Notes under the pieces: model-generated
Database searches by the model: none
Seen by the model: the letters and a program-made list of their open reading frames with translations, nothing else
What the model was told of the DNA's origin: nothing
Shown: positions 15,525 through 56,792 of the stretch, piece after piece
Layout of the letters: each line of letters opens with the position of its first letter
Numbering within the stretch: position 1 is the first letter of the stretch
Program-made: the position numbers and the translations under genes
Assembly (NCBI GenBank): GCA_001630475.1
Contig: KV419409.1
Coordinates: 372,001 to 436,000 of the forward strand
Source of the DNA: Sistotremastrum niveocremeum HHB9708
Lineage: Eukaryota; Basidiomycota; Agaricomycetes; Sistotremastrales; Sistotremastraceae
DNA: 64,000 nucleotides
Direction of reading: 5' to 3'

Positions 15525-15962
15525 ATGGTCTATTCATCCACTATCATCATCGTCGCCGCATGCATCTTCGCCTCTATACCGCAGCAGGTGCACGCAGGCA
15601 CACAGGATGTGCTTTCCATTCCTTCCTCGAGTTTGCCCAACTCTACTCTCCATCATCTCGAACCCGAAACTTGCCCAGGATGCGCTCGGGGTCCGTTCCA
15701 GGGATTTGTATTGCCAAATCAGTTCCCCAATCTGACCTCCGAGCCTACCATCCCCGAACAACCTCCTTCTCATGTTCCCGATGATGATGATGATACCATC
15801 GATGGCATGAATGATAACGTGGACGACGCTGATACCACTTCCAACACCCCCGACTCCAATAATCCATTCACGACGCCTGCCATTCCTCATCAAGGGCCTC
15901 GTAACGGCTCAACTTTCCACATTGAGACGTGCTCAGGATGTGCACGTGGTCCTTTCCGTTAA
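15525..15962 (+). CDS. Small secreted protein with two C-x-G-C-A-R-G-P-F motifs
   Basis: The 145-residue product begins with a clear signal peptide (MVYSSTIIIVAACIFASIPQ, then QVHA). It contains the same short motif twice: ETCPGCARGPFQ about residue 50 and ETCSGCARGPFR at the very C terminus. These are the only four cysteines after the signal peptide. Between them is a spacer rich in Pro, Asp, Asn and Thr, including a run of five Asp. It is a single exon. The start is the first ATG followed by a signal peptide; an open frame upstream is untranslated. The repeated motif and its placing at the end suggest a precursor from which short peptides are released, or a two-site redox or metal-binding protein; neither is shown. 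Two other genes in this window share the tail. I know of no named family. Confidence 0.7.
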   Translation: MVYSSTIIIVAACIFASIPQQVHAGTQDVLSIPSSSLPNSTLHHLEPETCPGCARGPFQGFVLPNQFPNLTSEPTIPEQPPSHVPDDDDDTIDGMNDNVDDADTTSNTPDSNNPFTTPAIPHQGPRNGSTFHIETCSGCARGPFR

Positions 15963-16237
15963 TCATATCTCTTACGATCAGATGACTGCAGCGGGCTGGC
16001 CCTGGCTGCTATTATCTATGACCCGTAATTTTATTGCCATATTGTATCTTTCATCCTCGCATTGTTACCCGCATGTATCACAATCCGCTGCCACCCCCCA
16101 TATCATCGCATTCCTGTCATTATCTCATTATCTCATTATCACATCTGACAATCGATTGGTTCTATCATCTACTAGTACCCTCGGCGAAGTATGACCGGCA
16201 CCGTGCTAAAGCTGTCCACAAAATCTGAAAGAACTAT

Positions 16238-55089: not shown

Positions 55090-56621
55090 TTTATAGTCAA
55101 GTCCTGTTGATACGGCGCGGATGTTAAGGACGTCTCAGAGCTCAAGAGAGTGGGAAGCATGATTATAGCATCGACGAGCCAGCGGTCCAGATCGATCGGA
55201 TACAAGAGTAATAATCATGGAAGAAATGTCAGATGATCCGGGGAACCCCGAAGCGCCAACATGTATCTGAGTCAATGCTTAGTCAACTGCACTTGAACCA
55301 ACCGAAGTCTGGTGGCAAGTCTTTGACTCACTCGTCTCTCCTGATCGTCCCGAAACATCCCTCCAGCGGATGCTTGTTTCAGGATGACCAGCTTGGTCAG
55401 GTGAACTTTGATCCAACACGATGCTTTCGGAACTCATGAGCGTGTTCTACTAGTGTAGAACTCTTTGGCTGAGGCTTCAGGCCTCTCTCTTTCGGACCTA
55501 GGGATATTCCCTCGAAATCCACAGCTATTCTTCAATTATTTGAAACCTCCAGAGGCCTAATGAGACTTGCCAAGCGCAGCAGACGGCCTTGGCTCCGGCT
55601 AGTTTTGTGTTTACGCTGCGCGATGGGAAAGCCTACATTTCTCGCATCTTGAGTGGTGCTACCTATCTTCTTGGCAATTTCGCATTGCCCGGAACTGTCA
55701 TCTTCGACGTCAAAGACTGGACGAGTATCAAGAATTGTTCATATCATTTTTCGGGGCCGATCGGCAACCGCAAAGCCGACGACGGATATCGAGCCGAACT
55801 TGAAGCAATTTCTTCGTGAAATGACTGGTACGCTCTGCTCACGCGCTCGTCTTATTTTGTCGAGTGGGATCTCTCGATTCACACGGGCGTCACGATTGTG
55901 AGCGGAAAAGTTCTCAAGAGTCATGTTGTCACTCAAAATTTCCTTATAGCTGCTGCTATGACGCTTTAGCACACGCGTCCCTGAAACGGTTACGGTCAGG
56001 GGCAAGTTCGGCGTTGCCGTGACTCTCAACACACCTGTGCGTCGCAGTATCATATACTCGTTATATTCCAACGATCACACGATCTGCATCTGTCTGCATC
56101 TGTCCAAAGCCAATCGTAGCGATCCGGGATCTGGAACTTGCAGTGCCCCTTAATCTTTATTCACAATCCCTGATTTGACTGTGGAGCTTTCTCTCAAACT
56201 TCAGCGACAGATGGTAACCTTCATCAAGCATTGCTAGCGCCTCGGATGGCATCGTCAGACTTCGGAAACGATTTGCATGGCCGCGTTGGTATTCTGTCGG
56301 TACGGCTGGCGATGCTATGCTTACAAAGAATGAAACTGGCGATATGGCGCAGTCATTGGATCGGCGAGTGACCTTTGGCATCGTCATTGACTGTGGCATG
56401 AAGCACTGCTGGACTTGGGCCGAGCGGGGTCGGCCACAGCGATCACTCTCTCTTTGCGTCAACATACGCGATTTGCTATACGAGTCATACAGGCGGAGCA
56501 TGCTAAAACTCAAAGAGACTATAAAGAGGGTCCAAGCTGAGCGACATTCCTCATCAACATTCAAAGCTTTAACCGCAGTCTACTTTCCCCAGTCTCATAT
56601 CTCTTACAAACCTCCAAGTGC
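55090..56621. other. Region without a firm gene upstream of a secreted peptide gene
   Basis: A plus-strand frame around 55580-55819 reads APASFVFTLRDGKAYISRIL, ATYLLGNFALPGTVIFDVKD and FSGPIGNRKADDGYRAELEA; it looks coding but has no start exon or domain. Frames at 56157-56564 (minus) and 56317-56670 (plus) overlap and are not supported. A TATA-like CTATAAAG lies at about 56519-56526, roughly 100 bases before the peptide start. Confidence 0.35.
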
Positions 56622-56792
56622 ATGCAGTTCATCACTTTCTCCGCCATCTTCTTCATCGCTCAAATCGTGACATTTTCATCCGCACTTCCAATTTCAGGGG
56701 TTGAATTGGAGGTTGCATCGAAAACAATAGAGCCCACGACACCTGCGATTGAAATTCGCGGCTGCGCTGGTTGCCCTCCCGGTGGACCATAA
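56622..56792 (+). CDS. Small secreted peptide precursor with C-terminal CAGCPPGGP
   Basis: The 56-residue product has a signal peptide (MQFITFSAIFFIAQIVTF, then SSALP), a short middle of about 22 residues (VELEVASKTIEPTTPAIE), and the end IRGCAGCPPGGP before TAA. The two tail cysteines are the only ones. Layout, length and tail match the gene at 29509, while the rest of the sequence has diverged, so the tail is the conserved part. A GTGAGT donor 12 bases after the stop and an acceptor ATTTAG before ACCACTATAGAGATCC imply the same spliced 3' untranslated region as in the other gene. An arginine precedes the tail in both (EPR, EIR), a possible cleavage point, but no dibasic Kex2 site exists. 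I know of no family for this protein. A role as extracellular signal or redox/metal peptide is inference. Confidence 0.7.
   Translation: MQFITFSAIFFIAQIVTFSSALPISGVELEVASKTIEPTTPAIEIRGCAGCPPGGP

Follow-up and report, generated by a model that had tools for sequence, protein, structure and literature searches.

A small family of putative secreted-peptide precursors with a conserved CxGCxPGxP tail in Sistotremastrum niveocremeum

Our analysis supports the presence, in the genome of Sistotremastrum niveocremeum (34.7 Mb in 111 contigs), of a tail-conserved family of about five genes predicted to encode small secreted-type precursors. Each precursor is 56-64 residues long, and all five have a common ending, R-[GST]-C-x-G-C-x-P-G-x-P, to which one of them adds a Trp unless its predicted intron is spliced. 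Support for this family comes from three further genes that lie outside the 64,000-nucleotide stretch of DNA analysed here (the window, positions 372001-436000 of contig C16), from purifying selection on the tail, and from a common gene structure. The three outside genes are C24A and C24B, both on contig C24 and 5.9 kb apart, and a gene on contig C44 to which we refer by the name of its contig. An earlier note on this DNA had placed a family of this kind at three sites in the window, here called W1, W2 and W3. All three frames, each beginning with ATG, were found at the coordinates and with the tails it described, as was an internal CPGCARGPFQ copy in W1 at position 15672; membership, however, is secure for W3, probable for W2 and unproven for W1. 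A Pro or Phe at the end of the tail, which the note attributed to all three, is seen in W2 and W3 but not in W1, which ends in Arg. The features of the two window members are as follows.

56622..56792, plus strand: W3, a 56-residue precursor with a signal-peptide-like N-terminus, a variable spacer, the tail IRGCAGCPPGGP and a TAA stop
56763..56789, plus strand: conserved tail CAGCPPGGP of W3, located by pattern search
56804..56859, plus strand: predicted 3' UTR intron of W3, 56 nt, 11 nt past the stop, by consensus only
56520..56527, plus strand: TATA-like box TATAAAGA of W3, 102 nt upstream of the ATG
29509..29685, plus strand: W2, probable member, a 58-residue precursor with a signal-peptide-like N-terminus, the tail EPRTCAGCRPGAP and a TGA stop
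29656..29682, plus strand: conserved tail CAGCRPGAP of W2, located by pattern search
29695..29747, plus strand: predicted intron of W2, 53 nt, after the stop, by consensus only
29396..29403, plus strand: TATA-like box TTTATACT of W2, in a weaker form, 113 nt upstream of the ATG

At the DNA level, the window contains five matches to the pattern CxGCxxG where 0.31 would be expected, and none of 100 shuffled sequences reached five. Four of these matches fall inside W1, W2 and W3, the fifth being an unrelated match on the minus strand at 37828. Across the whole genome a broad CxGC-type pattern gave 76 matches, compared to 55 in a reversed control; the 75 of these that were examined (71 elsewhere and four in the window, with C44:583 left out) yielded three new frames, C24A, C24B and C44, in which a signal-like N-terminus is combined with a tail placed at the stop. 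The narrower pattern CxGCxPGxP has only five exact matches in 34.7 Mb, namely W2, W3, C24A, C24B and C44, and every one of them sits at the stop or one residue before it, in a frame with a hydrophobic start. A third-order Markov model of the window yielded six exact matches in 200 Mb of simulated sequence, which corresponds to about one per genome by chance; no stop lay within one codon of any of these six. Allowing one mismatch gave 35 places against 28 in the reversed control, and among the 30 inexact places no tail with a signal-like start was found; 25 of them were re-scanned for frame-terminal tails that keep CxGC, and the other five were read individually. One frame with a terminal tail-like sequence, L096, was rejected, being only 16 residues long and having no ATG. 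With the first Gly left free, 11 places were matched, compared to nine in the control; three of the six additional places are interrupted by an in-frame stop within the match, and the other three are not tails. Because these relaxed patterns barely exceed their reversed controls, only the exact set stands out. As a separate observation, GSGCLPGSP occurs in near-identical frames on contigs C29 and C30, where it is probably part of a dispersed repeat and not a tail.

Membership was graded from genome queries, local BLAST and profile searches. With C24B as query against the whole genome, C24A was retrieved at E 2.7e-9, W3 at 7.3e-6 and C44 at 0.62; W3 retrieved C24B at 1.2e-5 and C24A at 0.054, matching over nearly its full length, and C24A retrieved C24B at 1.0e-9, W3 at 0.0056 and C44 at 0.096. 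W2, the most divergent of the five genes, found only itself in the genome and was missed by the C24B, W3 and C24A queries. In a small local BLAST, C44 matched C24A at 9.4e-6, and W2 matched C24A at 0.003. When a profile built from the three non-window members was run against 1174 window ORFs, W3 ranked first (1.4e-6) and W2 second (0.082); a profile restricted to the tails of these three members again ranked W3 first (8.6e-7), and W2 was not among the best 12 of the 1174. Neither of these two profiles placed W1 among its best 12, and a five-member tail profile, which itself contains W2 and W3, ranked W1 third of 1174 at E 0.66. We therefore regard W3, C24A and C24B as secure members on grounds of sequence homology, and C44 and W2 as probable ones, the latter two mainly because of their tails, introns and TATA-like boxes. 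The earlier view that, outside the tail, the proteins do not resemble one another is correct for the three window genes, but it does not extend to the relatives of W3 on contig C24, given the nearly full-length match just described.

Conservation of the tail itself was evaluated over the ten pairs that the five members form, where 51 of 76.7 synonymous sites and 14 of 193.3 non-synonymous sites differ (pS 0.67, pN 0.07). These values support purifying selection on the tail, as had been proposed for the window genes; the searches above support homology of at least three of the genes. The spacer is poorly conserved in both length and sequence, and an Arg precedes the tail in all five genes. A 46-56 nt intron, starting 2-14 nt past the last tail codon, is predicted in all five (in W3, with donor GTGAGT, branch-like CTAAC and acceptor TAG), and of the 5060 stop triplets that the window contains, 46 show the same arrangement; these introns were called from a donor-like GT[GC]AG[TC] with branch-like and acceptor sites, hence by consensus only. 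The intron predicted in C44 interrupts the stop codon: the unspliced message would end in GGPW-stop, the spliced one in GGP-stop like the paralogues; if splicing were regulated, both forms could be made. A TATA-like box lies 96-140 nt upstream in all five genes (96-142 nt in six of six when W1 is counted), and has the form TATA[AT]A or TATAAG in all but W2, with a background of 4.6% that excludes the weaker TTTATA form of W2. For introns and TATA-like boxes alike, the criteria were set after the sequences had been seen. A hydrophobic N-terminus was found in six of six genes by Kyte-Doolittle analysis only, with C44 and W3 modest and C44 the weakest (1.93); the best 12-residue means for W1, W2 and W3 are 3.05, 2.38 and 2.08. 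Among 337 window ORFs of 40-160 residues that begin with ATG, the genes themselves included, 3.6% reach 2.2 or more and 8.3% reach 1.8 or more.

W1 is possibly an analogue of the family whose membership is unproven, and we treat it separately from the five genes. Its features, and the frame that adjoins it, are given here.

15525..15962, plus strand: W1, a secreted-type protein of 145 residues that carries the tails ETCPGCARGPFQ and ETCSGCARGPFR
15672..15701, plus strand: internal copy CPGCARGPFQ
15930..15959, plus strand: terminal copy CSGCARGPFR
15383..15390, plus strand: TATA-like box TATAAAGA, 142 nt upstream of the ATG
16241..19116, minus strand: STAND-type NTPase frame (nSTAND1/NB-ARC) adjoining W1; neighbouring TPR matches are below cut-off

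W1 has a repeat of its own, CxGCARGPF[QR], with an Asp-rich spacer between the two tails; where the other genes have Arg before the tail it has Glu-Thr, and no intron was found after its stop. Its two copies differ mainly silently, at 4.5 of 7.8 synonymous and 2.5 of 22.2 non-synonymous sites. A genome search for CxGCARGP with one mismatch gave eight places against five in the reversed control, the exact matches being the two W1 copies only, and of the six other places two were examined, neither of which is a tail. No PDB sequence matches W1, and a single-sequence structure prediction (mean pLDDT 47.7, no secondary structure) was too poor for use. As for the adjoining frame, STAND-type NTPases with TPR are of a type found in fungal self-recognition genes.

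A search of about 5.8 billion proteins returned no homologue for W3 alone or for the five-member alignment, the latter having produced 642 candidates of which none reached E 10 or better. The control query for this database, an AUR1-like gene at 46305-47777 of the window, showed that many Agaricomycetes are present in it: the encoded protein, whose best matches are in Agaricomycetes, is 99% identical to one protein and 64% and 59% identical to two more, all without an organism name, and among named species the top match is 59% (Sparassis crispa), with several orders about equal. In Pfam, none of W1, W2, W3, C24A and C24B scored over a curated cut-off, and among the papers listed in searches of open-access PubMed Central, whose coverage mostly excludes subscription journals, none described these tails and none contained the exact strings. 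Within the scope of these three sources, they agree with the earlier remark that no named fungal family has this tail, and the family is apparently undescribed.

With regard to what these genes might do, the tail could be set free from the precursor as a short peptide, or could itself take part in redox or metal-binding chemistry. Of the two, release is the reading toward which we lean, with some reserve: the genes would be dispersed single-gene precursors of a secreted CxxC decapeptide, each carrying one conserved C-terminal copy. Signal peptidase would remove the N-terminus as the precursor enters the secretory pathway, a Kex2-like or other protease would cut after the invariant single Arg, and the stop codon would set the C-terminus of the decapeptide; the consensus ending of the five genes is R-[GST]-C-[AP]-G-C-[PR]-P-G-[GA]-P-stop. 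The two Cys of the CxxC may pair in a disulfide to give a small ring, which a Gly/Pro-rich turn would hold, and the fast-changing middle would then be a disposable spacer. Such a decapeptide would act extracellularly, in all likelihood carrying a signal from hypha to hypha or to another organism, even though a signalling role is a guess, and one among several conceivable functions. Counting against this reading are the lack of a database homologue, the lack of a dibasic Kex2 site, and the weakness of W2 and C44.

Known fungal systems offer partial parallels. KEPs are Kex2-processed repeat proteins of Agaricomycetes, according to passages of PMC9769878, PMC6339444 and PMC7329392, and for Coprinopsis KEPs expressed in Pichia a passage of the first of these describes apparent cleavage after a single Arg. 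Like KEPs, the five genes encode a secreted-type precursor from which a short peptide would be expected upon proteolysis, and their single Arg before the tail recalls the apparent single-Arg cleavage of some KEP products. KEPs, however, have at least three similar repeats, while the five short precursors have one C-terminal core each (W1 has two); they have dibasic Kex2 sites, while KR, RR and KK, as judged by eye, are absent from the five genes and from W1; and they have an N-terminal signal peptide, for which here we have a hydrophobic N-terminus in six of six genes by Kyte-Doolittle only. With neither repeats nor dibasic sites in the five genes, we rejected their identity with KEPs. Another parallel is Qsp1 of Cryptococcus, a quorum-sensing peptide described in part of PMC7537855 as deriving from a secreted pro-peptide matured by an extracellular protease. 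The likeness, drawn by description only, is that of a peptide from a secreted pro-peptide, and does not extend to import or a regulator. To our knowledge, mature Qsp1 has no cysteine.

Alternatively, the proteins might be secreted whole, with the uncut CxGC tail binding a metal such as copper, forming disulfides with a partner, or acting as an anchor. CxxC often serves to bind metals or form disulfides, the five genes offer a single Arg and no dibasic site for processing, and the two tails and Asp-rich spacer of W1 would suit a binding protein. The poor conservation of the spacer in length and sequence and the retention, in five of five genes, of an Arg before the tail that resembles a processing site speak against this explanation, which we consider unlikely, if still deserving of attention. 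It is somewhat less likely again that the genes encode lineage-specific effector-like or antimicrobial proteins whose tail would be the active part and whose target would be a partner organism, be it plant, animal or microbe. Small size, a secreted-type layout, the lack of a homologue in our search, dispersed duplicates and a fast-changing body would all be in keeping with such proteins, but the tail is conserved and not diversifying (as the low pN relative to pS indicates), and it has two Cys only.

We see very little room for these genes to be precursors of a modified cyclic peptide of the dikaritin-like RiPP kind, or of mating pheromones. In favour of it, a signal peptide and a short core would be expected of such precursors, UstYa is plentiful in this genome (at least 53 matches), and a putative two-cysteine alpha-pheromone-like repeat peptide is reported from a basidiomycete yeast, Trichosporon oleaginosus, in a passage of PMC6339444 that also gives basidiomycete sexual pheromones as a-type only. 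Ascomycete alpha-type pheromones and the T. oleaginosus peptide, as far as those descriptions go, resemble the putative tail decapeptide in being short and secreted and in having two Cys and Gly/Pro; they are unlike the five genes in having Cys further apart, repeated cores and dibasic sites. Basidiomycete a-type pheromones have a CaaX end and are not known to have a signal peptide. They are similar to the five genes in that small precursor genes carry the active part C-terminally, but the five genes have a CxGCxPGxP end and a signal-like N-terminus and no CaaX, their last Cys being sixth from the end in five of five (seventh in unspliced C44) and not fourth. Dikaritin-type precursors have clustered UstYa genes, whereas among the UstYa matches listed none is on contig C24 or C44, and the one closest to W3 on C16 is about 40 kb away. 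STE3 has at least 25 matches in the genome, and among those listed all are on contigs C13 and C35, none on C24, C44 or C16; the match groups on C13 and C35 are, in their own right, likely pheromone-receptor mating loci of this fungus.

The recognisable neighbours are housekeeping or unrelated genes: OGG1 and UFD1 on contig C24, a COX24 match below its cut-off on C44, and, among 30 window frames scanned for Pfam domains, most of which had no match, TFIIF-beta, MIS13, TauD and cupin, besides the STAND-type NTPase and the AUR1-like gene described above. When 15.5 kb of C24, 8 kb of C44 and the window were compared, the precursor was the only clearly common gene, the remaining between-locus pairs being antisense frames of tails or matches at E 0.003-0.009. 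The absence of nearby STE3 or UstYa matches among those listed, along with such neighbours, argues against both a biosynthetic cluster and a mating-type locus, and with the lack of a terminal CaaX leaves the RiPP and pheromone explanations disfavoured. Least of all do we credit the idea that, one small gene set apart, these are chance frames whose tails coincide through base composition: broad CxGC patterns are indeed common in this genome, but the exact tail occurs five times and always at the frame end, against about one chance match and none at an end, and homology, selection and common gene structure refute this explanation for W3, C24A and C24B.

Some other small duplications were seen in the window. 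Two adjacent minus-strand frames at 9366-10294 are 38% alike over 81 residues, one with the cupin match, and are likely a tandem duplicate; a similar pair on the minus strand at 49113-49826 and 51080-51703 (E 1.5e-6), with no Pfam match, forms a small local family; and a frame at 37478-38095 weakly resembles those at 39517-39975 and 40095-40541 (E 2-3e-4), with no Pfam match in the two of these that were scanned.

If release of the conserved decapeptide is indeed what these genes serve, they might represent an undescribed class of basidiomycete peptide hormones, in which single-copy secreted precursors, spread as lone duplicates, would each be cut behind a single Arg to deliver a disulfide-ringed decapeptide [GST]C[AP]GCxPGxP, a suggestion we make tentatively. 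It is with the same hesitation that we would regard such a class as separate from the KEP, RiPP and lipopeptide-pheromone pathways. Screens for fungal secreted peptides, as described in parts of PMC6339444 and PMC9769878, look for repeats and dibasic sites, and a family whose only recognisable feature is a terminal tail of ten residues would escape such screens; genes this short are also easily overlooked in annotation. Read together with its stop codon, the tail is sufficiently specific for direct use as a search key in other Agaricomycetes, and the corresponding synthetic decapeptides would be simple to make and assay.
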